Shown here: positions 4,715 to 63,909 of the stretch, in pieces
Layout: every line of letters begins with the position of its first letter
How positions within the stretch are numbered: position 1 is the stretch's first letter
Source of the DNA: Candidatus Roizmanbacteria bacterium GW2011_GWC1_37_12
Lineage (GTDB): Bacteria > Patescibacteriota > Microgenomatia > UBA1406 > GWC2-37-13
NCBI GenBank assembly: GCA_000991135.1
Contig: LBST01000004.1
Coordinates: 17,535-81,534, forward strand
DNA length: 64,000 bases
Reading direction: 5' to 3'
Program-made: the position numbers and the translations under genes
Notes under the pieces: model-generated
The model's database searches: none
Seen by the model: the letters and a program-made list of their open reading frames with translations, nothing else
Told to the model about the DNA's origin: nothing

Positions 4715-5836
4715 TTAACAAACATAAAGATGTCCACAATTTTGGCAAGGGGTCCAGTTAGAACGCTCGCTGCCTATAATTTCTCCTTGCCTTAATGATC
4801 CGCAACTAGGACAATTATAATTTTTGTGTCGGTGTTCCTGCTTCATCAGTTCTTTTAGCCCTTGCGTCGTTATTCGAAAAACAGTTGACGCTGGATTGAA
4901 TCTTTGGAAAAGAAAATTCTCCGGAGCAAAAGGCAGATCGTCTAATTCCATTATCGATCCACCACAAGAGCCAGCCAATAATTTTTTGGTAAGATTATTT
5001 CCTATCATATGATTAAAAATTGCTTTTTGGAAAGTCATTCTCACCACTTCCTCCGTTGTCTCTCTCCTCATCATTTCTTCAATAGTTTTGTCATAAACTT
5101 CGACATATTGTTTTTTTTTGCCTGATATTCGTTCTTGTATTTCGGCGATTATTTCTTTAATAAAATATTCTTTTCCTTTATGGTCAGTATAAAACGGCAG
5201 ATTCTCCGGAAAACTTTTTAGATTAAAATCCGAAATCATAGAAGATAAGATTGTTTGTTTTATTTTTTCCTCCGAAGATAAATCTCCATAAAGAAAATCT
5301 TCGGCGTCTTTTGAAGTTTTTAACGCTAAACCGTCAACTTTATTTCCTTTGCGGTAGTAAAGATATAGCTGTCCGTAATCATAGCTTATTTGTGAAAACG
5401 GATTCTCTTCATTATTATTAAACTCTGCTTTACCAATCGGACTATACCAAAGAATAGTCTTCCCTGGATTTTCAACCAAAAGTTTCTCTAGATTTTTAAA
5501 GCCTTCGATATAAACGCCGTCTCTTTCTTGGGGATTAAACATGGCGCTCGCCAGATGTTTTTTGTCAGGATTCGGTTGAAGATATAATCGACTATCCTGC
5601 CCTAACCAATAATTAAATATGTTCGATACCGGTTCGTCCCTGATGACTTCGTTGACATAACTTTCAAGGTGTCTTTGAAATTCAAACTGCCTTTCTTGAA
5701 GAGAAAGTCTGGAAAAACGGAGCGTTTGCGCCCTAGGGTCAATCCCTAATTGTTTTAATTCAGATAAAGCCATACTCCTTGCTCGAGGTAAGAAGGCTTT
5801 GGTGGTCTCGGACTCTCCCGACTTAGTCGGGATCAC
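4715..5836 (-). CDS. Hypothetical protein with C-terminal zinc ribbon
   Basis: I do not recognise this 373-residue protein. It is soluble, charged and mixed alpha/beta, with no signal peptide. The C-terminus carries two CxxC pairs (CPSCG and CQNCGHLYVC) that look like a rubredoxin-type zinc ribbon, and a GSCGGS motif lies around residue 286-291. The largest frame starts at a GTG (5836) inside a palindromic repeat (5815-5833). An ATG at 5773 is an alternative start with an AGGAG only 1 nt upstream. It lies 59 nt downstream of the isomerase gene on the same strand and may be co-transcribed. Confidence 0.65.
   Translation of the reverse strand: MIPTKSGESETTKAFLPRARSMALSELKQLGIDPRAQTLRFSRLSLQERQFEFQRHLESYVNEVIRDEPVSNIFNYWLGQDSRLYLQPNPDKKHLASAMFNPQERDGVYIEGFKNLEKLLVENPGKTILWYSPIGKAEFNNNEENPFSQISYDYGQLYLYYRKGNKVDGLALKTSKDAEDFLYGDLSSEEKIKQTILSSMISDFNLKSFPENLPFYTDHKGKEYFIKEIIAEIQERISGKKKQYVEVYDKTIEEMMRRETTEEVVRMTFQKAIFNHMIGNNLTKKLLAGSCGGSIMELDDLPFAPENFLFQRFNPASTVFRITTQGLKELMKQEHRHKNYNCPSCGSLRQGEIIGSERSNWTPCQNCGHLYVC
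5815..5833. repeat. CTCCCGACTTAGTCGGGAT palindrome, copy 1
   Basis: A 19-nt palindromic sequence whose exact reverse complement recurs at 22291-22309. Here it encodes or abuts the N-terminus of the upstream-most frame of the zinc-ribbon protein. Confidence 0.8.
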
Positions 5837-5895
5837 CGTTGCGGCACAGTGGCTGATTTACACAGCCTTCCCAAAATCAAAGCCAATTGATAAAA

Positions 5896-6969
5896 TTACT
5901 CTGCTAGTCTTTTTTTAAAATAATCGACATATGGAATTATTTTCGGATTTTGTTCGTAGAGAACTGATAAATACATTGATAAGTAACTACCTATAGCCAT
6001 GAGTTCAAAAGTCTGCTCGATCTTATTTTTTCCTTTTAATTCGTACCAAAGCGTTGAAATCTTGTTCTGTTCAACAACATCTTTTGTTATCGCAAATCTC
6101 TTTTGAATTTTAGTTGAATAAAGATTTGAATAAAAGAAAACAAAAGTTAAAATCTCTTTTAATTTGTCGGGAAATTTTAGTCCTTCCAGAAAGTGATGAT
6201 TTAGCTCTGGAATTATCCTAAAGCTAGAAATAGACTTGGCGGTTTCGTTTGTTTGATTGGCAATTGAATTACCTATGCCGGTCAAAAATTCGGAAACAAT
6301 ATAATATGGATATCTCTGGTAAAGCTTTGTGGCCAATTGTTTTATTTGATTATTATCTTTTCCTATATCCACTTTAAAATCTTTGATTAAATTCGATAAA
6401 TTGCTAATTGACTGTTCTATTTCTTGTCTGGCTGATTTAATAAACCCTAATTTGAATAACATACCTAAGTGGCCTCCGACAAAATAACCAAAACCTATCC
6501 TTGGTTGTCCTGATGGATTAAATACTGGGTCGATCACATAACGAGGATAGTTGTTTTTCTCCAAAAATGTTTTTAGATCTCCACCGATAGTAATACCGCA
6601 TATTTTTGCTCCTTTTTTGACTGCTTTCTCCCCGCAGATTAGGACTTCTTCTGTTGTCCCAGAATAGGAAGATAAGATCACCAAAGTATTATTGTCGACG
6701 AATCCTGGCAGGCTGTAATCGTCATTAATTATATAAGGAACAGCTAATTCTTCTTTAAACAGTTCTTTAATAATAAAGCTGGGGAATCTCGAACCTCCTT
6801 GACCGCAAACTACAATCCGATTAACAGTTTTAAAATCTTCAGGAAAGGAAATATTATATGAGTCTTTAAAAGACTGTTCTAACTGCCGGGGAAGATTATC
6901 GATCGATTTTATTACTAAATCACCTCCTTGAAGTTCTAGGATTCTTTTTATATCGTCGAGGTCGATCAT
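5896..6969 (-). CDS. Bifunctional phosphoglucose/phosphomannose isomerase
   Basis: Interconverts glucose-6-P or mannose-6-P with fructose-6-P in central sugar metabolism. The 357 residues fit the archaeal/bacterial PGI/PMI family. An N-terminal SIS domain carries VVCGQGGSRFP (usually GMGGSA) and LSSYSGTTEEVL. The C-terminal bact-PGI domain carries IPELNHHFLEGL, the family's active-site block. The change of GMGGSA to GQGGSR is a family variation worth noting. The start ATG (6969) is 42 nt from the divergent UbiA gene, so the two share a short promoter region. Confidence 0.88.
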   Translation of the reverse strand: MIDLDDIKRILELQGGDLVIKSIDNLPRQLEQSFKDSYNISFPEDFKTVNRIVVCGQGGSRFPSFIIKELFKEELAVPYIINDDYSLPGFVDNNTLVILSSYSGTTEEVLICGEKAVKKGAKICGITIGGDLKTFLEKNNYPRYVIDPVFNPSGQPRIGFGYFVGGHLGMLFKLGFIKSARQEIEQSISNLSNLIKDFKVDIGKDNNQIKQLATKLYQRYPYYIVSEFLTGIGNSIANQTNETAKSISSFRIIPELNHHFLEGLKFPDKLKEILTFVFFYSNLYSTKIQKRFAITKDVVEQNKISTLWYELKGKNKIEQTFELMAIGSYLSMYLSVLYEQNPKIIPYVDYFKKRLAE

Positions 6970-50677: not shown

Positions 50678-50743
50678 ATGATAAAAAATTTGTCATTAAA
50701 TCTTCTTCTTAACCTTACCAACCTTAACAGGTGGGGACGTTAA
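50678..50743 (+). CDS. leuL: Leucine-rich leader peptide
   Basis: A 21-codon frame with Leu at positions 5, 7, 9, 10, 11, 13 and 16, i.e. seven of 21, including three consecutive CTT codons. It ends in N-R-W-G-R. It is followed by mutually exclusive hairpins and a T-tract before leuA, which makes it a classical attenuator leader. There is almost no 5' UTR. Named by analogy; no similarity search was possible. Confidence 0.88.
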   Translation: MIKNLSLNLLLNLTNLNRWGR

Positions 50744-50789
50744 TATAGAAGAAAAAAATTATAACCCCGCCTAGGCGGGGATTTTTTTT
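50718..50789 (+). terminator. leu attenuator (protector, antiterminator, terminator)
   Basis: Terminator: CCCCGC (50765-50770) pairs with GCGGGG (50775-50780), loop CTAG, then A and eight Ts (50782-50789). Antiterminator: AGGTGGGG (50729-50736) can pair with CCCCGCCT (50765-50772). Protector: CC/ACCT (718-724) with AGGT/GG (729-734). Leu codons lie immediately upstream, so stalled ribosomes would favour antitermination. Confidence 0.85.
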
Positions 50790-50807: not shown

Positions 50808-51959
50808 ATGGAAAATAAAGTTTATATTTTTGATACAACTTTACGCGACGGAGAACAAGTTCCGGGGTGTCAGTTGAACACAGAGGAAAAAGTTATCATT
50901 GCCAAAGAGTTAGAAAAACTTGGGGTTGACGTGATTGAGGCAGGATTTCCAATTTCATCGCCTGGAGACTTTAATTCTGTTATTGAAATATCAAAAGCTG
51001 TTAAAAATCCAATAGTTTGCGCTCTGACCAGAGCAAAAAAAGAAGACATAGAGGCAGCAGTAGAATCCTTAAAATATGCCAAGAAAAAAAGAATCCATAC
51101 GGGTATTGGCTCATCAGACACCCATATTCAATATAAATTCAAGTCCACCCGAGAAAAAGTTTTGGAGCAAGCAGTCTGGGCAGTTAAATACGCCAAAAAA
51201 TTTGTTGATGATGTTGAGTTTTATGCCGAAGATGCCGGCCGGGCAGACAAAGAATTTTTAGCGAAAATGGTTGAAGAAATAATAAAAGCCGGGGCAACGG
51301 TTGTCAATATTCCCGATACGACCGGCTACTGTCTGCCGCAGGATTTTGGGGGTAAAATTAAATACTTGTTCGAAAACGTAAAAAACATTCATAAGGCAAT
51401 TATTTCAGTTCATTGTCATAATGATTTAGGAATGGCGACTGCCAATACTATTTCTGGTCTTATCAATGGAGCCAGACAGGCAGAGGTGACAGTCAATGGT
51501 ATAGGGGAACGAGCTGGCAATACTTCTTTAGAAGAAATCACCATGATTTTAAAAACACACAAGAAGTTAGATTTGGAAACAGGTATCAATACTAAAAAAA
51601 TTTATGACATCAGTCAAAAGGTATCAAAAATGATGAACATGCCAATACAAAAAAACAAGGCTATTGTTGGCGCTAATGCCTTTGCTCATTCATCAGGTAT
51701 TCACCAGGATGGCATAATCAAACAGAGGGAAAATTATGAAATTATTGATCCAAAAGACGTCGGTATTGATAAATCAAAAATTGTTTTAACCGCTAGGTCA
51801 GGACGTGCAGCCTTAAAATATCGGTTGAGAAATCTTAAATATGAAATCAAGCAAGAACATCTAAATATTATTTATAAAAAATTTTTGAATTTAGCTGATG
51901 AAAAAAAAGAGATTAACGATCAAGATTTAAGAATTTTAATGATTCAAAATAACTTATGA
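50808..51959 (+). CDS. leuA: 2-isopropylmalate synthase lacking the regulatory domain
   Basis: First step of leucine synthesis (2-oxoisovalerate + acetyl-CoA). 383 residues, against ~510 for usual LeuA. The TIM barrel is complete: [57 protein letters not shown] and [11 protein letters not shown], then an [13 protein letters not shown] linker domain. The C-terminal leucine-sensing dimer domain is missing. Length also resembles homocitrate synthase, but the leuDC-leuB context and Leu leader favour this call. It overlaps leuDC by 4 nt. Confidence 0.88.
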
Positions 51960-53854
51960 CAAACAAAATTATAGGAAAAATCACGTCTATTTTTCCCAAA
52001 GACATCAACACCGATGATATTATTCCCGCTTGGACTTTGCAGGAATCAACTGATAGAAGTTATTTTGAAAAATATGCTTTTGATAATTACGATAAAGATT
52101 TTGTTTTTAGATGTAAAAAGGATGAAAACAATATTATCGTTGCCGGAAAGAACTTTGGTTGCGGGTCCTCCCGCGAACAGGCAGTCTATACTTTACAGGA
52201 AAATAATATTAAAGCAATTATTGCCCTATCATATCCTGATATCTTCTACCGAAATTGCTTAAACAATGGCCTTCCGGCAATCATTGTTGATGATATTACG
52301 GAATATAAAATTAAGCAAAAAATAATTATTGATTTTGATAACAAAATTGTTCAATTTGACGGAAAGAAATATAAAATAAAAAATCCACCTGAAGATATAA
52401 AAAGCTTCTCTTTGGGTGGAAAATTAGGAAAAACAAGATCACATTTGGGTGCCCTACTGAGCCAAAAACAACCGCGGAGGTTAGAATCAGATTGGCAGAA
52501 TAGTCTAAAGCCGAGTAAAAATCAAACAATTGTGGAAAAAATCATTTCCGATCATGTTGGCCGGCCGGTCTTTCCCGGAGAAAAACTGGATCTTCCTATC
52601 GATATTTTATTTTTTAACGAGGTGATCGGACAACCGGCTATTCAGGATTTTAAAAATAAATTTTCTGATGTATTTGCTAAATACAACAAAAGGGTTAAGG
52701 TTTTTGATCCGAAACGGATATTTTTTATTCCTGATCATACAGTCCCGTCTTCGTCGGTGGCCGTTTCTGAAGGAATCGATCTGATGGAGAAATTTTCCCG
52801 TGAACAGGGAACAAAATGTTATAAAGAAGGTGACGGCATCGAACATGTTGTCTTGATTGAAGACGGTTATATTGTCCCAGGTGAAATAGTTTTGGGAACC
52901 GATTCACATACTGATACAAACGGGGCTTTAAATACTTTGGCTTTTGGTGTAGGAACGAGCGATGCAACTTATGCCATGTCTACGGGATTTATATATGACT
53001 TCGAAATACCAAAAACTATTAGATTTAATCTGAAAGGAAAATTCAAAAAAGGTGTTTATGGAAAAGATCTAATCTTGTATCTAATTGGGAAACTTGGGGT
53101 TGACGGTGCGTCAAAAAAAATCATTGAATTTGGTGGTCCGGGTTTGAAAAACATTTCTCTTGAGCAGAGAATTACTATTGCCAATATGGGGGTGGAGATG
53201 GGTGCGAGAACTGCCATTTTTGAGCCTGATGAAGAACTGGAAAAATACCTGAAAAATAAAAATAAATTCCCTTACAAATTTTATTATCCTGATAAAGATT
53301 GTCTATACGAAAAAGTCGTTGATATCGATCTATCCAGTCTTGAGCCTTGCGTGGCTTTTCCTCACAAGCAGGGGAATATCACTTTTGTTTCCCAAATGGA
53401 TTTATACATGAAAAAAAGCCAGAAAAGCAAATCAATGGATTTTGTACCAGTAGAATCATTAAAAATTACCGATGCTTTTTTAGGTGCTTGTACTAATGGT
53501 CGCTATGAGGATTTTATCGAAGCAGCAAAAATAATAAAAGGAAAGAAGGTTCACCGAAACGTCAACTTTGTCGTTATTCCCGCTTCGCGAAAGGTCTATA
53601 ACCGATTGATGAAAGATGGAATTTTGCAAATATTTGCCGACGCCGGAGCCAACATCGAATCGTCAAACTGCGGCCCATGTTTTGGCAAGCATATGGGAGT
53701 GGTTGGAAGAGGAGCGCAAATGATCTCCTCATCAAACAGAAATTATATCGGTAGGATGGGGTCGCGCGAGGCCCGGATATTCTTAGCGTCGCCGGTGACG
53801 GTTACAGCCGCGGCAGTTGCAGGTGAAATAGTTGACCCAAGAAAATACTTATGA
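51956..53854 (+). CDS. leuDC: Fused 3-isopropylmalate dehydratase (LeuD-LeuC order)
   Basis: Isomerises 2- to 3-isopropylmalate with a [4Fe-4S] cluster. 632 residues hold both subunits. Residues ~1-165 are the small swivel subunit ([23 protein letters not shown] at about 66-77). Residues ~190-632 are the large subunit: [41 protein letters not shown] (cluster Cys near 511) and [13 protein letters not shown] (Cys near 572 and 575). Elsewhere these are two proteins in bacteria. The order small-then-large is unlike fungal Leu1. Coupled by 4-nt overlaps to leuA and leuB. Confidence 0.92.
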
Positions 53855-54963: not shown

Positions 54964-55398
54964 ATGGATCAAACATTTAAATCTTTCACACATAAGTTTG
55001 TTGCTGTCTTGAATAAAAAGATTCCCGTTCCAAATTTGATGAATGCCTTGGGTCATATGGCGGCCGGTTTATCAGCTAATTATCCTAATATTCCTGAAAT
55101 GCGTTTTGACAGTTATTTCGACCGCGACGGCGGAAATCATAAAAACATTTCTGATAATCCATTTATTATTCTTGCTGCTGACAATTCTAATAAGATTAGA
55201 GTTTTAAGAAATTTTTTAATCGAAAAGAATATTCATTTTGTCGATTTTACCTCGACTATGACGGTTGGAACTTATGTTGAACAACAACAAAGAACTAAAG
55301 AAACTCCGGAAGCGGAGCTTGAATATTACGGAATATGTCTGTTTGGAGAAATCAGCCAAGTTAATGAACTAACCAGGAAATTTTCTCTTTGGAGATGA
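54964..55398 (+). CDS. DUF2000-family protein
   Basis: A 144-residue protein with the DUF2000 pattern: THKFVAVLNKKIPVPNLMNALGHMAAGLSANY, then NKIRVLRNFLIEKNIHFVDFTSTM and EYYGICLFGEISQVNELTRKFSLWR. The fold is related to peptidyl-tRNA hydrolase 2; role unknown. It follows leuB by a 51-nt repeat-containing gap and may be read from the same transcript. Confidence 0.82.
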   Translation: MDQTFKSFTHKFVAVLNKKIPVPNLMNALGHMAAGLSANYPNIPEMRFDSYFDRDGGNHKNISDNPFIILAADNSNKIRVLRNFLIEKNIHFVDFTSTMTVGTYVEQQQRTKETPEAELEYYGICLFGEISQVNELTRKFSLWR

Positions 55399-55411: not shown

Positions 55412-56365
55412 TTAACAAACCTTGTTTTGTACTTTCCCGTTAATCCAACCGCTGACATTATTAAATGCAATTTCCGCCCTTCTTACTAAAGCTTCTTTGG
55501 TTGCAAAGGCTACATGGGGAGACATGACTGAATTAGTTGTTTTTAATAACTGGTTATCTAGTGAAACTGGTGGTTCTTGAACAAACACATCAATCCCACC
55601 ACCAGCAATTTTTTTTGTATTTAATGCATCAGTAAATGCCTCTTTATTAATCGTTCCCCCTCTAGACGTTTGGATTACGAATACGGTTGATTTCACTAAT
55701 TTAAATTCATCCCAACTTATCAAATCTTTAGTTTCACTATTTAATGGAGAGTGAACTGTAATTATGTCACTTCCTGACAATAATGTTTTTAAGTCAGTAT
55801 ATTTCAATCCTAATTGAGTGGCTTCTTTTCTTTCACTATGGCTATACCCAAGCAACTTGCAACCAAACGCCTTTCCAATTTCAGCCACTCTCAAACCAAT
55901 CGTTCCTGTTCCAACAATCCCCAGAGTTTTTCCATAAAGATCGTTGCCAATTAATCCTTGTCTTGTTCCACCAACCCTAATAACTTCGTTACATTTTGGA
56001 ATATTTCTTAATAGAGAAATTATTAAACCAAAAGTTAATTCAGCAACAGAATTAGTTGCATAACCGGCCGCATTACAAACAACAATATTTCTTTTTTTAC
56101 ATTCTTCAGTATCGACATGGTCAAATCCTGTAAAAGCGACTGAAATCATTTTAATATTGGGACATGATTTTATCGATTCTTTATCAAAAGGATAATTAAC
56201 TAACATTAATATTTCTGCATTTTTAGCTCTTTCAATTGCTTCTTTCTTATCCTTTGGTAATGTATCAAAAGAAGTCAGTTCATGGCCTTTATCAGATAGA
56301 GTTTTAATAAAAACATCTAATTGAGATTTATCAATCGCCAACGGTTGAAGTATTACTATTTTCAT
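55412..56365 (-). CDS. D-2-hydroxyacid dehydrogenase
   Basis: NAD-dependent dehydrogenase, 317 residues. NAD motif GIVGTGTIGLRVAEIG; catalytic Arg in QTSRGGTINKEAF; Glu in VQEPP; His in SPHVAFATKEA. All catalytic residues are kept, unlike the relative at 29237-30163. Substrate could be phosphoglycerate-like or a 2-oxo acid; context near the BCAA genes hints at branched 2-hydroxy acids, which is speculation. Confidence 0.9.
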   Translation of the reverse strand: MKIVILQPLAIDKSQLDVFIKTLSDKGHELTSFDTLPKDKKEAIERAKNAEILMLVNYPFDKESIKSCPNIKMISVAFTGFDHVDTEECKKRNIVVCNAAGYATNSVAELTFGLIISLLRNIPKCNEVIRVGGTRQGLIGNDLYGKTLGIVGTGTIGLRVAEIGKAFGCKLLGYSHSERKEATQLGLKYTDLKTLLSGSDIITVHSPLNSETKDLISWDEFKLVKSTVFVIQTSRGGTINKEAFTDALNTKKIAGGGIDVFVQEPPVSLDNQLLKTTNSVMSPHVAFATKEALVRRAEIAFNNVSGWINGKVQNKVC

Positions 56366-56377
56366 TGTTATTATTTT

Positions 56378-56632
56378 CTAATTATATATAGGAGTTAAAA
56401 TCCAAGGATTGTCTGGATTACTTGTTTCTTGTGCTCTAACCACAGTTTTTCCCTCTAGTTTCAATCCCGGAATCAATTTAATATTTAATTTATTAAGCTC
56501 TTCATTTTTATAAGAAAAAACAATATACGAACACCCAGAATATTTCTTAAGTATATCTGGTTGTGTTATTAAATAATTAGCTAATCTATCAGATAAATTT
56601 ACATTTAGCTTGAACTGTTGAGCTTTACTCAT
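56378..56632 (-). CDS. Small DUF5647-like protein
   Basis: An 84-residue protein. The segment NVNLSDRLANYLITQPDILKKYSGCSYIVFSYKNEELNKLN resembles DUF5647 family members often found with toxin-like genes. No catalytic motif. It lies 72 nt downstream of the next hypothetical gene on the same strand. Confidence 0.6.
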   Translation of the reverse strand: MSKAQQFKLNVNLSDRLANYLITQPDILKKYSGCSYIVFSYKNEELNKLNIKLIPGLKLEGKTVVRAQETSNPDNPWILTPIYN

Positions 56633-56704
56633 AGGTTGATATTATAACTTGTTTATAATAAAAATGTAATATATTTACGCTAAAATTACAACTGTTAAAA
56701 TTTT

Positions 56705-57112
56705 TTAAAATTTTTCAACTTTTATATCTTTTAGTAAAAATCTATTTCTATAAAGAAATTTTTTCTTGTAATAAATATAATTATTTTTAATATCTTCTAT
56801 TGCCCAATGCAGAAGTTTTTTCCAATCGCCTTTTTTCTTAACACCCTCATTGTCAACTATATTAGCCTCATTGTCATATGAAATCTTATTATGACGATGC
56901 AATAATCCTTCATGGTGATTATCATAGTACAAAATCGTAACCCAATTATCCAATATTTTTATATTCAATGAAACGCTAACTATTTCTGTTTGCTTTGTTT
57001 TTAGATCGTCGTTATATACATAAATTATTTTATTACTATTTGAAAGTATGATTTCAGATAAATGTCTTTTTTTAAAATTCTCTTTAATTTTTTTCAAATA
57101 CTTCTTTTTCAA
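56705..57112 (-). CDS. Hypothetical basic protein
   Basis: A 135-residue, Lys/Asn/Tyr-rich soluble protein. The segment NWVTILYYDNHHEGLLHRHNKISYD is distinctive (paired His). No family recognised with confidence. It may pair with the DUF5647-like gene as a two-gene module. Base composition is even lower in GC than its neighbours, suggesting recent acquisition. Confidence 0.55.
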   Translation of the reverse strand: MKKKYLKKIKENFKKRHLSEIILSNSNKIIYVYNDDLKTKQTEIVSVSLNIKILDNWVTILYYDNHHEGLLHRHNKISYDNEANIVDNEGVKKKGDWKKLLHWAIEDIKNNYIYYKKKFLYRNRFLLKDIKVEKF

Positions 57113-57156: not shown

Positions 57157-57185
57157 TTGCAAAATAAAAAAAGTTCTGCTATCAT
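57157..57185 (+). promoter_or_regulatory. Promoter of the pyk leader with TTTGCAAA box
   Basis: TTGCAA (57157-57162) inside TTTGCAAA, 17-nt spacing, extended -10 TGC-TATCAT (57180-57185). Predicted start is ~7 nt before the leader ATG (57199). Confidence 0.75.
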
Positions 57186-57198
57186 TGTTGCTTATCTT

Positions 57199-57267
57199 AT
57201 GAAAAATCAGGTTTTGTCAATTGTTGTCCTTATTACTCCGCTTACGGCGGTGTCATGTAATAATTGA
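57199..57267 (+). CDS. Ile/Val/Leu-rich leader peptide upstream of pyk
   Basis: A 22-codon frame with V, L, I at positions 5, 6, 8, 9, 10, 11, 12, 15 and 18 (nine branched-chain residues), plus two Thr. It ends S-C-N-N. Followed by the attenuator hairpins at 57238-57311. Judged real by composition, promoter placement and the hairpin logic. Confidence 0.85.
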   Translation: MKNQVLSIVVLITPLTAVSCNN

Positions 57268-57311
57268 TAAAAATCAATTAAGACAAGGACCCGCCGAAAG
57301 GCGGTTTTTTT
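57238..57311 (+). terminator. pyk attenuator (protector, antiterminator, terminator)
   Basis: Terminator CCGCC-GAAA-GGCGG (57291-57304) and seven Ts. Antiterminator CGGCGG (57245-57250) with CCGCCG (57291-57296), extendable by TGTC/GACA. Protector CCGC (57238-57241) with GCGG (57247-57250). Ile/Val/Leu codons 57211-57234 lie just before the protector. Confidence 0.83.
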
Positions 57312-57327
57312 ATTTTAAAGCTAAAAT

Positions 57328-58747: not shown

Positions 58748-58776
58748 TTGCAAATTAAAAAAGAATTTGTTATTAT
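58748..58776 (+). promoter_or_regulatory. Promoter of the ilv leader with TTTGCAAA box
   Basis: TTGCAA (58748-58753) inside TTTGCAAA, 17-nt spacing, extended -10 TGT-TATTAT (58771-58776). Nearly identical to the pyk leader promoter, including the upstream TTTCA. Confidence 0.78.
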
Positions 58777-58789
58777 ATTTACTAAATTT

Positions 58790-58855
58790 ATGAAAATCAA
58801 TAAATTGGTTATCGTCAGCATTATTCTTGACCCGAAACCGGGCGGATGTTGTTGA
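58790..58855 (+). CDS. ilvL: Ile/Val/Leu-rich leader peptide of the ilv operon
   Basis: A 21-codon frame with I, L, V at positions 3, 6, 7, 8, 9, 11, 12 and 13 (four Ile, two Val, two Leu), ending P-G-G-C-C. Followed by attenuator hairpins and the aminotransferase-ilvBNCA operon. Named by analogy with enterobacterial ilv leaders; not homologous by descent as far as I can tell. Confidence 0.87.
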   Translation: MKINKLVIVSIILDPKPGGCC

Positions 58856-58901
58856 TAATAAAAATTAATAAACACCCCGCCCGAGAAAGGGCGTTTTTTT
58901 T
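58831..58901 (+). terminator. ilv attenuator (protector, antiterminator, terminator)
   Basis: Terminator CGCCC-GAGAAA-GGGCG (58878-58893) and eight Ts (58894-58901). Antiterminator CGGGCGG (58839-58845) with CCGCCCG (58877-58883). Protector CCCG-AAAC-CGGG (58831-58842). The hydrophobic codon run 58805-58828 ends just before the protector. Confidence 0.85.
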
Positions 58902-58913
58902 AGGCTGAAAATT

Positions 58914-60098
58914 ATGAATCTCAATAAACTAAAATCAAAACGAATCAAGGTGATGGAGTATAGTGCCTTGAGTGAGCTTTTGAGAGTTACTGCTAAGCCG
59001 GAAATTATTTCTATGGCCGGAGGACTACCGGCTCCAGAAGCCTTTCCTTTTAAAATCATTTCTGCTCTTAATAATCTCGTTCTAAAAAAACATCGTAGTG
59101 TTTCTTTACAGTATGGCCCAACTAATGGAGTCCTAGTCCTTCGTGGAGAAATTGCTAAGTGGTTGGAAGAGCGGAAGATGAAAGTAACCTCTGAAAACAT
59201 TGGAATCACTTCCGGTAGCCAAGGCGGGCTTGATACCTTAGGAAAAATATTTATTAATGAAGGTGATAAGATTGCAGTTGAGTCGCCGACCTACATCGGA
59301 GCCATTGACGCCTTTACTTCATATGGCCCTATCTATGAAGAAATTAAAACAGACTATGATGGTGTTATCCCTGAATCCCTGGAAAAAATTCTGAAAAACA
59401 AAAAAGTGAAGTTTGTTTATTTGGTGCCGACGTTTCAGAATCCAACTGGAAGAACCATTACCTGGGGAAGAAGAAAAAAGATCGCCAAGATTATTAAAAA
59501 ATATCATGTACTTTTGGTGGAAGATGATCCTTATAACAGTCTTCGCTACCGTGGTAAACCAATTGATCCGATTCAGACTTTAGTGCCTGAAAACACTATC
59601 TATCTTTGTACTTTTTCCAAAGTCTTGGCTCCAGGACTTAGAATAGGGTTTTATGCTGCTCCAAAAAAATTAGCCGATCTGATGGTAGTTGCCAAACAGT
59701 CAGTTGATCTTCATACTTCAAGTTATGGTCAATATCTGGCAGCTGAATATTTGAAAACAGGGGATTTAAAAAGACATCTCCCTAATATTTTAAAGATATA
59801 TAGGTTTCGTCAAGAAGCGATGTTTGAAGCTTTGGAAAAATATCTTCCATCTGGTTTCTTCTGGACTCGTCCTGAAGGAGGAATGTTTGTTTGGGTCACC
59901 GGGCCGAAAAATTTTGATTCAGTAAAACTTTATTGGCAAGCAATTAAAAATAATATTGCCTATGTTCCGGGCACCTATTTTTTTACCAAGCAAGGTGAGG
60001 GAAAAAACACCATGAGACTGAACTTTACTAATGTTAATGAAGAACAAATCGATACGGCAGTAAAAAGATTAGCAAAAGTTATTAAAAATAGCCTATGA
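58914..60098 (+). CDS. PLP-dependent aminotransferase (class I/II, LysN/2-aminoadipate type)
   Basis: A 394-residue fold-type I aminotransferase. Visible: SLQYGPTNGVLVLRGEIAKWL, ITSGSQGGLDTLGKIF, PTFQNPTGRTIT, VEDDPYNSLRY, CTFSKVLAPGLRIGF (PLP Lys in FSK) and the C-terminal NTMRLNFTNVNEEQI (carboxylate Arg). This subgroup has broad specificity. Position between the ilv attenuator and ilvB strongly suggests it makes Val/Ile/Leu from their 2-oxo acids, replacing IlvE. It overlaps ilvB by 4 nt. Confidence 0.88.
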   Translation: MNLNKLKSKRIKVMEYSALSELLRVTAKPEIISMAGGLPAPEAFPFKIISALNNLVLKKHRSVSLQYGPTNGVLVLRGEIAKWLEERKMKVTSENIGITSGSQGGLDTLGKIFINEGDKIAVESPTYIGAIDAFTSYGPIYEEIKTDYDGVIPESLEKILKNKKVKFVYLVPTFQNPTGRTITWGRRKKIAKIIKKYHVLLVEDDPYNSLRYRGKPIDPIQTLVPENTIYLCTFSKVLAPGLRIGFYAAPKKLADLMVVAKQSVDLHTSSYGQYLAAEYLKTGDLKRHLPNILKIYRFRQEAMFEALEKYLPSGFFWTRPEGGMFVWVTGPKNFDSVKLYWQAIKNNIAYVPGTYFFTKQGEGKNTMRLNFTNVNEEQIDTAVKRLAKVIKNSL

Positions 60099-61777
60099 AA
60101 TATACTGGAGCGGAAATATTGATGAGATCACTTTTACAAGAAAAGGTTGAAGTGATTTTTGGCTATCCGGGTGGAGCTAATATGCCCATCTATGATGCTC
60201 TATATTTCTATGGAAAAAAATTCCGTCATATTTTGGTACGCCATGAACAGGGGGCCGCTCACGCAGCCGAGGGTTATGCCCGGGTAACTGGAAAGCCCGG
60301 AGTTTGTCTGGTAACTTCGGGACCTGGGGCGACTAATCTTGTCACAGGTATTGCCGACGCGATGATGGACTCTGTACCAATGGTTTGCATCACCGGCCAG
60401 GTGGCTGCGGAATTTTTAGGCAGCGACGCATTTCAAGAAGCCGACGTTGTGGGTATAACAACACCGATCACCAAGTGGAACTGCCAACTAACCCACGCTG
60501 AAGAAATTCCTGAAGCCATCGCTAAAGCTTTTTATATCGCTAGTCATGGCCGACCTGGACCGGTTGTCATCGATATCACCAAAAACGCCCAATTTGAAAA
60601 AGCTGAATTTAAATATCCTAAAAATTTTTATGTCAAAAAATTAAAAACAGTCAATAAATTTAACAGCGGAGATATAAAAAAAGCGGCTGAAATTATCAAC
60701 AAGGCAAAAAAACCTTTAATGTTGGTCGGTCACGGAGTATTGATTTCCAAAGCAGAAAAAGAAGTTTTACAAGTGATTGAAAAAACAGGAATGGTAGCCG
60801 CCTCCACCCTCCATGGCCTTTCATCGATTCCTTTTGATCATCCCCTTTATGTGGGCATGATTGGAATGCACGGTAACTACTCACCAAACAAATTGACTAA
60901 CAGTGCTGATGTTATCTTGGCCGTTGGCATGCGTTTTGATGACCGTGTGACCGGAAAACTGTCTGAGTATGTTCCGAAAGCAAAAGTTATTCATATTGAC
61001 ATTGATGAAAGCGAACATCATAAAAATGTTCGGGCCCACTTTCCTTTACTTGGAAATGTCAAGGATGTTTTAAAAAGTCTTATGCCCTATCTCAAAAAAA
61101 ATAATCACGATGAATGGCTGGGAGATTTCAAAGAACTAGACAAAAAAGAATTGGAATTTGAAAAAATTAGACAACAAAAAAATAAAAATAAAATCACTAT
61201 GAATGTGGTTTTGTCACTTTTATCTGAAAAAACAAAAAACGAAGCAGTAATCGTCGCCGACGTCGGGCAAAATCAGATGTTTTCCGCCCGTTATTACAAA
61301 TATAAAAATCCTGATAGTTATATCACTTCCGGCGGGCTGGGGACGATGGGTTTTGCTTTGCCGGCAACCATGGGAGCCAAAGTTGGCGCTCCAAAAAGAT
61401 TGGTTTTTGCCGTCATTGGTGACGGTGGTTTTCAAATGACCATCCAGGAACTGGGGACGATCATGCAAGAAAAAATGCCGATTAAAATATTACTTTTGAA
61501 CAACGAATATCTGGGAATGGTACGTCAATGGCAGCAGCTATTTTTCGAAAAACGTTACTCTTTTACCCATATGCAAAATCCCGATTTTATAAATATTGCC
61601 AAATCTTATGGAATTAAAGGTGAACAAGTTATGGAAAGAAAAAAACTTGAGATAGCTTTGGACAGATTTATCAATTTTCAAGGCCCATATTTATTAGAAG
61701 TTAAAGTGGAGAAAGAAGATAATATTTTTCCCATGGTGGCTACTGGAACGTCTGTTGACGATGTTCGTCTTGAATAA
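60095..61777 (+). CDS. ilvB: Acetolactate synthase large subunit
   Basis: TPP/FAD enzyme condensing pyruvate (or pyruvate + 2-oxobutyrate). 560 residues: FGYPGGANMPIYDAL, VRHEQGAAHAAEGYAR (catalytic Glu near 50), VTSGPGATNLVTGIADAMMDSVP, AFQEADVVGITTPITKW, then TSGGLGTMGFALPATMGAK, VIGDGGFQMTIQEL (TPP motif) and LLNNEYLGMVRQWQ. Complete. First committed enzyme for Val/Leu/Ile. Its stop is 1 nt before ilvN. Confidence 0.96.
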   Translation: MKYTGAEILMRSLLQEKVEVIFGYPGGANMPIYDALYFYGKKFRHILVRHEQGAAHAAEGYARVTGKPGVCLVTSGPGATNLVTGIADAMMDSVPMVCITGQVAAEFLGSDAFQEADVVGITTPITKWNCQLTHAEEIPEAIAKAFYIASHGRPGPVVIDITKNAQFEKAEFKYPKNFYVKKLKTVNKFNSGDIKKAAEIINKAKKPLMLVGHGVLISKAEKEVLQVIEKTGMVAASTLHGLSSIPFDHPLYVGMIGMHGNYSPNKLTNSADVILAVGMRFDDRVTGKLSEYVPKAKVIHIDIDESEHHKNVRAHFPLLGNVKDVLKSLMPYLKKNNHDEWLGDFKELDKKELEFEKIRQQKNKNKITMNVVLSLLSEKTKNEAVIVADVGQNQMFSARYYKYKNPDSYITSGGLGTMGFALPATMGAKVGAPKRLVFAVIGDGGFQMTIQELGTIMQEKMPIKILLLNNEYLGMVRQWQQLFFEKRYSFTHMQNPDFINIAKSYGIKGEQVMERKKLEIALDRFINFQGPYLLEVKVEKEDNIFPMVATGTSVDDVRLE

Positions 61778-61778
61778 T

Positions 61779-62024
61779 ATGAGTAGATTTACTGTTGATA
61801 TTATTGTCGAAAATAGACATGGTGTTCTTTATAGAATTGCCGGTTTATTGACAAAAAGAAAAATCAACATCGAAAGGATCAATGCCTATGCTGTCAAAGG
61901 CGACGGGATTTCCAAGATATTTTTTACGGCTGATATTGAGGAAAAGATTGTTGATACAGTGGTAAAGCAGATAGATAAGATTATTGAAGTTATTGACATT
62001 AAGTATCACAAAGCCAAATTATAA
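61779..62024 (+). CDS. ilvN: Acetolactate synthase small (ACT) subunit, short form
   Basis: Regulatory subunit. About 81 residues with a single ACT domain: TVDIIVENRHGVLYRIAGLLTKRKINIERINAYAV. The full-length subunit is ~160 residues; the C-terminal half is absent, as in E. coli IlvN/IlvM short forms. The ATG at 61779 follows ilvB by 1 nt; an upstream in-frame start would lie inside ilvB. Confidence 0.9.
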   Translation: MSRFTVDIIVENRHGVLYRIAGLLTKRKINIERINAYAVKGDGISKIFFTADIEEKIVDTVVKQIDKIIEVIDIKYHKAKL

Positions 62025-62029
62025 GTTCT

Positions 62030-62065
62030 AGATTCCTCGTCCCGCTTCGCGGAACTCGGAATGAC
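62030..62065. repeat. AGATTCCTCG...CGGAATGAC palindromic repeat between ilvN and ilvC
   Basis: A 36-nt member of the same family with core CCGCTTCGCGG. It contains an in-frame ATG (62061) that could be mistaken for the ilvC start. Confidence 0.72.
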
Positions 62066-62078
62066 AGAGAAGAGAAAT

Positions 62079-63125
62079 ATGAAAATAGATTTTGGAGGAG
62101 TCAAGGAAAACGTAGTCACACGCGATGAGTTTCCATTGAAAAAAGCGCGTCAAGTTTTATCATATGAGATAGTTGCCATCATTGGTTATGGGGTGCAAGG
62201 TCCAGCCCAAGGAATGAATCTGCGGGACAATGGCTTTAATGTCATTGTTGGCCAGAGGAAGCCGTCAAAGAGCTGGGATAAAGCAGTGGCTGACGGTTGG
62301 AAACCCGGTAAGAATCTTTTTGAGGTCGAGGAGGCGGTGAAAAGAGGCACGATTATCTGTTATCTTTTGTCCGATGCGGGACAGCTGGCAGCTTGGCCGG
62401 TTGTTAAAAAACATTTAACAAAAGGCAAAGCCCTTTATTTTTCCCACGGATTTGGAATCACTTTTTTCAAAGAAACCGGCATTGTCCCGCCGAAAGACGT
62501 TGATGTGATTTTAGTGGCACCAAAAGGAGCCGGAAGAACGGTGAGAAGACATTTTTTGGCAGGAAAAGGAATCAACTCTTCCTACGCTATCTATCAGGAT
62601 GCGACTGGCAAGACTAGTGAGAGAGTGAAGGCAATGGGAATTGGAGTCGGATCAGGTTATCTTTTTGAAACAACTTTTAAAAAAGAGGTCTATTCTGATC
62701 TTGTTGGCGAGCGGGGGGTTTTGCTTGGAGCCACAATCGGGATCATGGAAGCCCAGTATGAATTTTTTAGAAAAAAAGGCCATAGTCCAAGCGAGGCGTT
62801 CAACGAGACAGTTGAGGAGTTAACAGAGAGCCTGATCCCTTTGATGGCGGAAAAAGGACCAGACTGGCTTTTGGCCAACTGCTCAACAACTGCCCAGAGA
62901 GGCGCGTTTGATTGGAAGGATAGATTTAACAAAGCCGTCAAACCTGTTTTTGAAAAGCTTTATAAGAGTGTTGCCGACGGGACTGAGGCGAGAAGAGTTA
63001 TCAAGAAAAACAGCCAGAAGAATTATAAAGAACAGTTGGAGAAAGAACTGACAAAATTAAGGAATAAAGAAATGTGGAGGACAGGAGTAAAGGTAAGAGA
63101 ATTAAGGCCAGAAAATAGTAAATAA
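62079..63125 (+). CDS. ilvC: Ketol-acid reductoisomerase, Bacteroidota/fungal-like type
   Basis: Rearranges and reduces acetolactate. About 348 residues: IIGYGVQGPAQGMNLRDNGFNVIVGQR (NAD(P) site), YLLSDAGQLAAWP, FSHGFGITF, VAPKGAGRTVRRHF, and the C-terminal METAL region (SDLVGERGVLLGA, EAFNETVEELTESLIPLM, NCSTTAQRGAFDW). The DFGGVKENVVTRDEFPLKKAR start and KVRELRPEN end recall Bacteroidota enzymes from memory. Preferred start 62079, since 62061 lies in the repeat. Confidence 0.93.
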   Translation: MKIDFGGVKENVVTRDEFPLKKARQVLSYEIVAIIGYGVQGPAQGMNLRDNGFNVIVGQRKPSKSWDKAVADGWKPGKNLFEVEEAVKRGTIICYLLSDAGQLAAWPVVKKHLTKGKALYFSHGFGITFFKETGIVPPKDVDVILVAPKGAGRTVRRHFLAGKGINSSYAIYQDATGKTSERVKAMGIGVGSGYLFETTFKKEVYSDLVGERGVLLGATIGIMEAQYEFFRKKGHSPSEAFNETVEELTESLIPLMAEKGPDWLLANCSTTAQRGAFDWKDRFNKAVKPVFEKLYKSVADGTEARRVIKKNSQKNYKEQLEKELTKLRNKEMWRTGVKVRELRPENSK

Positions 63126-63132
63126 TCAATTT

Positions 63133-63909
63133 ATGAAAAATTTATTTAAACAGATAGAAGAAGCAGTAAAAAATCTGGAAGGGTCGGTGAAAAAGACGCC
63201 GTTGCAGTTTTCCCAAAGGCTGTCTGATCTTTATCAGGCAAATATTTATTTGAAACGCGAAGATCTGCAGGAGGTGAGGTCGTATAAAATCAGAGGCGCT
63301 CTTAATAAAATGATGAGTTTAACTGAAAAGGAAAAATCCTTGAGAGTAGTAACAGCTTCGGCTGGCAATCATGGTCAAGGAGTCGCCTTTAGTTGCAATA
63401 AGCTGAAAGTCAAAGGAGTAATTTTTATGCCGCGAGCAACTCCTAATCAAAAAGTCGAAAGGGTGAAGTATTTTGGTAATGGCCAGGTCGAAATCAAGTT
63501 GGAAGGCGATACCTATGATGAAGCAGTAGCAGCCGCAAAAAAATATAGTCAGAGAAAAGGCGCAGTTTACGTCCCGGCCTTTGACGATGAAAAAGTCATT
63601 GCCGGACAGGGAACAGTTGCAAAAGAAGTTTATGATCAATTAAAAGGAGATATTGATTATGTGTTGGTGCCGATCGGCGGCGGCGGATTAATCTCCGGAG
63701 TTAGTGTCTATCTAAAAGAAAAAAACAAAAATATAAGGATTGTTGGTGTTGAAGCAAAAGGAGGTAACTGCATGATTAAATCATTTAAAGCTGGCAAAAT
63801 TGTTTCTTTGGACTCAGTTGATACTTTTTGCGATGGTTGTGCAGTTAAGACTCCAGGAAAGTTAACCTTTGAGATTTGTAAGAAACTATTACATACAATT
63901 ATGGCTTAA
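63133..63909 (+). CDS. ilvA: Threonine dehydratase-like protein, C-terminally truncated
   Basis: PLP enzyme converting threonine to 2-oxobutyrate for isoleucine. 258 residues cover YLKREDLQEVRSYKIRGALNKM (PLP Lys), TASAGNHGQGVAFSC, PIGGGGLISGVSVYLKEKN and VDTFCDGCAVKTPGKLTFEICKK, then stop after LLHTIMA. Catabolic enzymes are ~320-330 residues and biosynthetic ones ~515, so the end of the catalytic domain and any regulatory domain are missing. No continuation is seen in other frames downstream. Possibly non-functional. Confidence 0.8.
   Translation: MKNLFKQIEEAVKNLEGSVKKTPLQFSQRLSDLYQANIYLKREDLQEVRSYKIRGALNKMMSLTEKEKSLRVVTASAGNHGQGVAFSCNKLKVKGVIFMPRATPNQKVERVKYFGNGQVEIKLEGDTYDEAVAAAKKYSQRKGAVYVPAFDDEKVIAGQGTVAKEVYDQLKGDIDYVLVPIGGGGLISGVSVYLKEKNKNIRIVGVEAKGGNCMIKSFKAGKIVSLDSVDTFCDGCAVKTPGKLTFEICKKLLHTIMA

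Follow-up and report, generated by a model that had tools for sequence, protein, structure and literature searches.

A predicted Ile/Val/Leu transcription attenuator in front of the pyruvate kinase gene of a Candidatus Roizmanbacteria genome

In the genome of Candidatus Roizmanbacteria bacterium GW2011_GWC1_37_12, the gene for pyruvate kinase (pyk) very probably lies behind a ribosome-stalling transcription attenuator, so that a shortage of charged isoleucyl-, valyl- or leucyl-tRNA would turn on synthesis of the enzyme. Control of pyk by Ile/Val/Leu (ILV) attenuation had been proposed in a preliminary description of this DNA, and the present analysis supports it. Attenuation by ILV codons is the best reading of the predicted folds, because the switch coincides with the end of the ILV run and is stable to the footprint size assumed for the ribosome, because the module is homologous to the attenuator of an ilv operon in the same genus (genome G016, 82% over 163 columns), and because nine other leaders of the genome share its geometry, with codons that fit the genes behind them.

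The window, that is the whole stretch of DNA analysed, comprises 64,000 nucleotides, and coordinates are given as window positions unless a contig or locus is named. The elements found at pyk, all on the + strand, are the following:

57157..57185, + strand: promoter-like site TTGCAA-17-TATCAT, whose -35-like TTGCAA begins at 57157
57199..57267, + strand: leader frame MKNQVLSIVVLITPLTAVSCNN, 22 codons, nine of them for Ile, Leu or Val
57220..57234, + strand: control-codon run ATT GTT GTC CTT ATT (I V V L I), at the end of which the in-silico ribosome scan places the switch
57238..57250, + strand: early hairpin of segments 1 and 2, CCGC (57238-57241) with GCGG (57247-57250), P = 0.99 in transcripts ending at 57256-57290
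57245..57296, + strand: antiterminator, 57245-57250 with 57291-57296, six G-C pairs; it shares the 5' arm of the terminator, and the two are mutually exclusive
57291..57311, + strand: intrinsic terminator CCGCC-GAAA-GGCGG-T7 (segments 3 and 4), 57291-57295 with 57300-57304, five G-C pairs closed by a GAAA loop
57328..58731, + strand: pyk, pyruvate kinase, 467 aa, with domains PF00224 (PK) and PF02887 (PK_C) and 493.3 bits against TIGR01064 (cut-off 306.4)

The 22-codon frame with nine branched-chain codons reported in the preliminary description is right to the base (ATG 57199, TGA 57265-57267), and the competing pairings that it gave, 57245-57250 with 57291-57296 against 57291-57295 with 57300-57304, are present in the sequence. 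The antiterminator is extended by 57252-57254 with 57288-57290, 57256-57258 with 57283-57285 and 57261-57268 with 57273-57280, and the fold of 57226-57312 has a z of -5.4. A spacer of 16 bases separates the last T of the terminator (57311) from the pyk ATG (57328). Promoter-like sites of the kind found here occur twice in the window, against 0.32 expected (two or more in 3 of 100 shuffles), and the other one precedes the leader of the ilv operon. The pyk transcript would start about 7-8 nt 5' of the leader ATG, near 57192, and the leader gene would then be near-leaderless. A TTG frame is also readable from 57157, ATG 57199 being the likelier start. The motif TTTGCAAA was considered as an operator and rejected (6 matches against 5.55 expected).

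The 467-aa protein resembles solved pyruvate kinases, and its gene is the sole copy found in the assembly (994 kb, 94% complete); the other own match is weak and was rejected as a second pyk, being by sequence what we take to be a GyrB-like frame. PEP synthase and enolase are also encoded in the genome. Two enolase matches were observed (C9:29578-30384 and C8:41218-41988), one of them with a TAA inside the matched stretch. Within the genus sample of 20 genomes, a PPDK_N domain occurs in 18, and a convincing pyk match (E below 1e-50) in six, the own genome included (G000, G001, G003, G005, G011 and G018).

The gene stands among branched-chain amino acid (BCAA) genes, with leuA, a fused LeuD-LeuC gene and leuB on its 5' side and an aminotransferase gene, ilvB, ilvN, ilvC and a partial ilvA on its 3' side. 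Both sides carry leaders of their own, the one before leuA serving as an internal comparison:

50678..50789, + strand: Leu leader MIKNLSLNLLLNLTNLNRWGR and terminator before leuA (50808-51959)
58748..58776, + strand: promoter-like site TTGCAA-17-TATTAT of the ilv operon
58790..58855, + strand: second ILV leader MKINKLVIVSIILDPKPGGCC, with relatives in G005 and G019
58878..58901, + strand: second terminator CGCCC-GAGAAA-GGGCG-T8
58914..60098, + strand: class I/II aminotransferase, first gene of the ilv operon
60095..61777, + strand: ilvB, acetolactate synthase large subunit (TIGR00118)
61755..62024, + strand: ilvN, acetolactate synthase small subunit, with an ACT domain
62061..63125, + strand: ilvC (TIGR00465)
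63133..63909, + strand: N-terminal part of ilvA, 258 aa as against 413 aa in G005 and G016; contig and window have a common end

The interval between pyk and the second leader contains no recognisable terminator, so that pyk transcripts can run into the latter. The LeuD-LeuC fusion (51956-53854, 632 aa) has the small subunit first; it has full-length matches in G005, G001 and G011, and corresponds to separate genes in G016.

The behaviour of the switch was predicted with an equilibrium ribosome scan, in which, for every codon of the leader, a footprint of 14 nt to either side of the first A-site base was masked and the remainder was folded. At pyk, the predicted probability of the terminator is at most 0.013 at all A-site codons through CTT 57229, 0.16 at ATT 57232 (0.74 when all upstream RNA is masked as well) and 0.98 at ACT 57235, and it stays at 0.83-0.92 afterwards. 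With a downstream cover of 10, 12, 14, 16 or 18 nt, the last open codon is T, I, I, L or V, respectively, which is always the end of the run. In silico, the antiterminator persists with the ribosome anywhere up to the Ile-Val-Val-Leu-Ile run or within it, and disappears as the end of the run is reached. When no ribosome is present, the equilibrium is slightly in favour of the antiterminator (0.58, vs 0.38 for the terminator), and full termination would therefore require either the kinetic hairpin at 57238-57250 or a translating ribosome.

The equilibrium scan is no validated predictor: applied to the thrL, leuL, ilvL, hisL and trpL leaders of E. coli, it gave a switch in none of the five, because their terminators win at equilibrium. 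A co-transcriptional version was therefore added, in which the transcript is stopped before the 3' arm of the terminator and the 5' arm is examined for being already occupied. With this version, thrL, leuL (partly), hisL and trpL drop 0-2 codons past their control codons, while ilvL is not clean. The boundary at pyk is the same as at equilibrium. Among the ten leaders of the genome described below, the drop comes at or within two codons of the end of the control codons, with the exception of the leader before a TrpB-like gene, where it comes three codons past the Trp pair and is only partial.

Attenuators of this type were then compared between relatives. The pyk attenuator is closest to the first of two tandem attenuators in G007 (84%) and to the ilv attenuator of G016, whose leaders, MKNQVLSIIVLIAPFRRTSCNN in G007 and MKNQMSIIVLITPLNCGVMK in G016, are related to the pyk leader; seven other ILV attenuators (own ilv, G005, G006, G081, G011, G023 and G063) reach 63-67%. 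A comparison of base pairs in the three closest copies gave no clean covariation, with one double change (57267/57274), several cells being broken and the arms shifting. The own ilv attenuator matches those of G005 (72-73%) and G019 (73%). The ilv attenuators of G016, G005, G017 and G019, all of the same genus, share the promoter-like site, the leader and the pairings with the window attenuators; DNA identity to a window attenuator is 72-82% for G016, G005 and G019, and for G017 the match is confined to the promoter stretch (87% over 55 bases against the pyk attenuator). Their first gene is an aminotransferase gene or ilvE, and they differ from the pyk locus in that pyk is absent between attenuator and operon. 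The order in G005, G017 and G019 is DUF2000 gene, attenuator, first ilv-operon gene, with a contig break inside the aminotransferase gene in G019, and two reverse frames lie in between in G016. The IlvB of G017 is 90% identical to the own one, and no pyk is shown in that genome (76% complete). Neither ilvC nor pyk is shown in G007, despite the 84% likeness of the attenuator. Tandem ILV- or Phe-rich attenuators were observed near an acylphosphatase-like gene in G007 (L173 1498-1790) and G003 (L179 1440-1740), where they precede frames of 68 and 425 aa that have no Pfam match.

For a broader view, 21 related loci with ilv genes were considered: 20 came from the 22 other genomes in which ilvC was matched (all except G002 and G022), and one from G017, included for its DNA match to the pyk attenuator. 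An ILV-rich attenuator precedes ilv or leu genes in 14 of these loci. The 14 loci hold 16 attenuators, of which 12 have an equilibrium switch and four do not; the latter include that of G016, where the equilibrium switch is unclear and a co-transcriptional switch is seen. The other seven loci, some of which are short contigs, are without an ILV-rich attenuator, under criteria that miss the Leu leaders before leuA in G005, G001 and G016.

The pyk gene has a different distribution. Near full-length matches among 57 relatives are 32-38% identical, the best match in a phylum sample of 379 genomes reaches 53%, and an E value of 1e-110 is passed in only one of 372 class genomes, the own one; the search for related loci with pyk returned one distant pyk only. 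Upstream regions were compared for 55 pyk starts, recognised in 58 loci (none in L025, L026 and L029; L027 and L030 overlap within one gene region, and L013 and L083 have less than 100 nt upstream). None of the 55 carries an ILV attenuator. A terminator-like site lies within 300 nt upstream of pyk in four (L009, L084, L092 and L106). Of these, L009 was rejected since its ILV-rich frame passes through the stem, and L106 since its ILV-rich frame ends 134 nt before the stem. L084 (G169) was also rejected: an ILV-rich TTG frame ends there 28 nt before the stem, and the ribosome scan gives no switch. This frame is inside the end of the upstream gene, so that the terminator most likely ends that gene. 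The L084 terminator is on the minus strand, 113 nt before a pyk of 52% identity and just past the end of a same-strand gene.

The comparison of sister pyk loci suggested in the preliminary description thus gave a divided answer, ILV-rich attenuators being common to the relatives in front of ilv or leu genes and missing from all 55 pyk starts. This absence does not refute attenuation at pyk, because the proteins compared are hardly orthologues (32-38%, 53% at best); the attenuator-pyk arrangement is, as known, confined to the own genome.

A protein search (best 120 matches listed) gave P0001 at 100%, whose cluster includes the own pyk, followed by P0002-P0020 at 62-67%, with none between 67% and 100%. 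By comparison, at least 11 IlvB proteins at 87-90% are among the matches listed, and the own IlvB is 88% identical to one of Candidatus Roizmanbacteria GW2011_GWA2_35_19. A nearest listed pyk at 67% against IlvB at 87-90% makes a recent acquisition of pyk most likely, and the 82-84% likeness to the G016 and G007 attenuators indicates that pyk was most likely placed behind an attenuator of the ilv type. The history would be that of a horizontally acquired pyk that landed there. A pyk (P0027, 63%) and an IlvB (P0172, 67%) among the proteins listed both have a longest contig of 97,399 bases, which is probably the same contig.

Such a history leaves some room for a working attenuator that has pyk as a mere passenger, which happened to land between the ilv operon and an old ilv attenuator; BCAA control would then be useless, and the enzyme would supply pyruvate on leader leak. 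This is possible but rather doubtful. It would agree with the apparent recency of pyk, with an arrangement that occurs in no relative examined, and with the presence of the attenuator type before ilv genes in G016. However, the leader frame, the promoter-like site, the three-way pairing and the terminator are all intact despite a letter difference of 16-18% from the relatives, and the ilv operon has its own second attenuator, the first one being unneeded for ilv.

The nature of the signal was considered next to the ILV reading. In silico, stalling at earlier codons of the pyk leader (Lys, Asn, Gln, Ser) also opens the switch, so that selectivity depends on where starvation occurs, and the predicted codon selectivity is from one side only. 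Since the antiterminator is retained at whichever leader codon the ribosome stalls, short of the end of the ILV run, the general translation rate, or starvation for Lys, Asn, Gln or Ser, might open the switch as much as BCAA starvation does. We consider such a signal unlikely, as ILV codons make up seven of the eight that immediately precede the switch (V L S I V V L I), and as the ilv and leuA leaders of the window give a closed state at the first codons and an open one mainly along the control run. In the ilv leader, the scan is open from Lys5 to Ile12 (KLVIVSII) and then closed again, and in the leuA leader it is open around LLL.

The number of ILV codons was rejected as stand-alone evidence for a leader, nine of them being unremarkable (binomial P = 0.039 for an ILV share of 23.4% in eight window proteins). 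The chance of the whole arrangement was assessed with 20000 dinucleotide-preserving shuffles of 57191-57290, placed before the real terminator. An ATG leader ending 15-42 nt before the stem was present in 3624 shuffles, 167 of which also had a run of at least 5/6 ILV codons, and the full composite, with a folding switch at the ILV run, occurred in one of the 20000; the composite of the ilv attenuator was also obtained in 1/20000. The terminator is thus very unlikely to be a plain insulator or roadblock without regulation, accompanied by a leader frame that arose by chance. The codon count, taken alone, would allow it, but the rarity of the composite speaks against it, as do the homologous leaders of two further genomes, in one of which the leader stands before ilv genes. 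A role as an end-of-gene terminator was likewise rejected: the upstream frames of at least 80 aa at 55412-57112 run on the other strand and the nearest on the + strand ends at 55398, so that no such + strand frame ends within 1.8 kb upstream and the terminator ends no upstream + strand gene.

A T-box, riboswitch or protein-binding leader in place of a translated one is hardly credible, for although the location before the gene, together with a terminator, is compatible with one, Rfam gave three matches in the window at gathering threshold, none of them at the pyk leader, and a translated leader explains the position, the codons and the homologues. A cobalamin riboswitch was observed elsewhere in the window, at 5783-5897 on the minus strand (Rfam RF00174, 38.6 bits).

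Attenuation by ILV codons is further set in context by a scan of all own stretches together with the window (1.006 Mb with overlaps), in which 78 terminator-like sites, all distinct, were searched for an ATG leader ending 15-42 nt before the stem and for an equilibrium switch. Eleven matches were obtained, one of which (L145, before a 121-aa frame) is probably spurious. The others are leaders before hisS (V H H; L113 13201-13295), thrS (T T T; L156 17298-17210, minus strand), a gene for a TrpB-like enzyme (W W I; L146 1168-1270), a gene for a SerB-like phosphatase scoring below the SerB cut-off (S P S N S; L143 5238-5130, minus strand), HutH (V H H), the DAHP synthase gene aroF (two in tandem, Y F Y F and F Y F Y), leuA (L L L), pyk (I V V L I) and the ilv operon (V I V S I I L). 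The switch codons fit the amino acid of the own gene in nine of ten cases; pyk is the exception, its codons fitting the neighbouring pathway. The first aroF leader ends in DPKPGGDCC and the ilv leader in DPKPGGCC, a likeness suggesting that one module was copied and its control codons were changed. Ten predicted leader attenuators in a genome of about 1 Mb suggest a large share for leader peptides in the amino-acid control of this lineage. Two observations concern single leaders. The tandem aroF attenuators are on the minus strand of contig C7 (L150 11745-11449), both with Phe/Tyr runs. The HutH leader (L146 11488-11612, contig C6) has two His codons at the predicted switch, and histidine ammonia-lyase is a degradative enzyme, for which control by His starvation would be in the wrong direction.

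In E. coli, the ilvGMEDA, leu, thr, trp and his attenuators work through a leader peptide and alternative hairpins. Attenuators of the leader-peptide type are known from genes that produce or charge the sensed amino acid. The pyk attenuator resembles the E. coli ones by its leader peptide, its alternative hairpins and a terminator before the first gene; it differs from them by a terminator stem of five pairs (7-12 in E. coli), by a leader gene that would be near-leaderless, and by a target in central metabolism. The ilvB or ilvBNC attenuators of Corynebacterium, Mycobacterium and Streptomyces are reported to have, like pyk, a short Ile/Val/Leu frame, a terminator and competing hairpins; these actinobacterial attenuators precede ilvB operons, whereas the one described here precedes pyruvate kinase (PMC1262725, PMC11857589). 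In S. coelicolor, codon changes were reportedly without effect, so that the case is not settled there (PMC1262725). As of 2010, the authors of another report knew of leader-peptide systems shown only in Proteobacteria and Actinobacteria, besides their own case in Firmicutes (PMC2965389). A leucine-rich attenuator peptide of Staphylococcus aureus is, like that of pyk, a leader peptide outside Proteobacteria and Actinobacteria, but it is reported to act on BCAA synthesis genes, and not on pyruvate kinase as the pyk leader would (PMC5794164). An engineered thrL-pykF fusion of E. coli also places an amino-acid leader element before a pyruvate kinase gene; it is man-made and responds to a threonine signal, whereas the predicted pyk attenuator is natural and its signal would be BCAA (PMC7041290).

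No natural pyruvate kinase under an amino-acid attenuator was found among the open-licence PMC papers listed, in agreement with the preliminary description, whose author was aware of no pyk regulated in this way by BCAA. What is new here is the target of the attenuator and, among the literature matches listed, the lineage, leader attenuation itself being well known.

For pyk, we infer leader translation, stalling, readthrough and a physiological purpose as follows. RNA polymerase would start near 57192, and a ribosome would enter the leader at once. With ample charged Ile-, Val- and Leu-tRNA, it would pass the I-V-V-L-I run and cover or pass segment 2 (57245-57250); the terminator 57291-57311 would then form, and transcription would halt just before pyk. 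A ribosome stalled at or before the run would cover segment 1, leaving segment 2 to pair with 57291-57296; the terminator would be blocked and pyk transcribed. The same starvation would open the second attenuator, before the aminotransferase-ilvB-ilvN-ilvC-ilvA genes. Because acetolactate synthase consumes pyruvate, such a circuit would provide the precursor along with the pathway, and pyruvate supply may be coupled to acetolactate synthase.

Taken as a whole, the data make it reasonably probable that this is a natural precursor-on-demand circuit, in which a horizontally acquired pyk has been wired to BCAA hunger via a captured ilv attenuator, in a reduced genome of the Patescibacteria type in which leader-peptide attenuators, duplicated, re-coded and moved between genes, govern eight or more other amino-acid genes or operons. 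The codon-level switch point at pyk makes the prediction directly testable. The target is a central glycolytic enzyme that feeds the pathway, so that a nutrient signal from the end product would reach back into glycolysis, and the case illustrates how an existing sensor can be recruited to a new gene.
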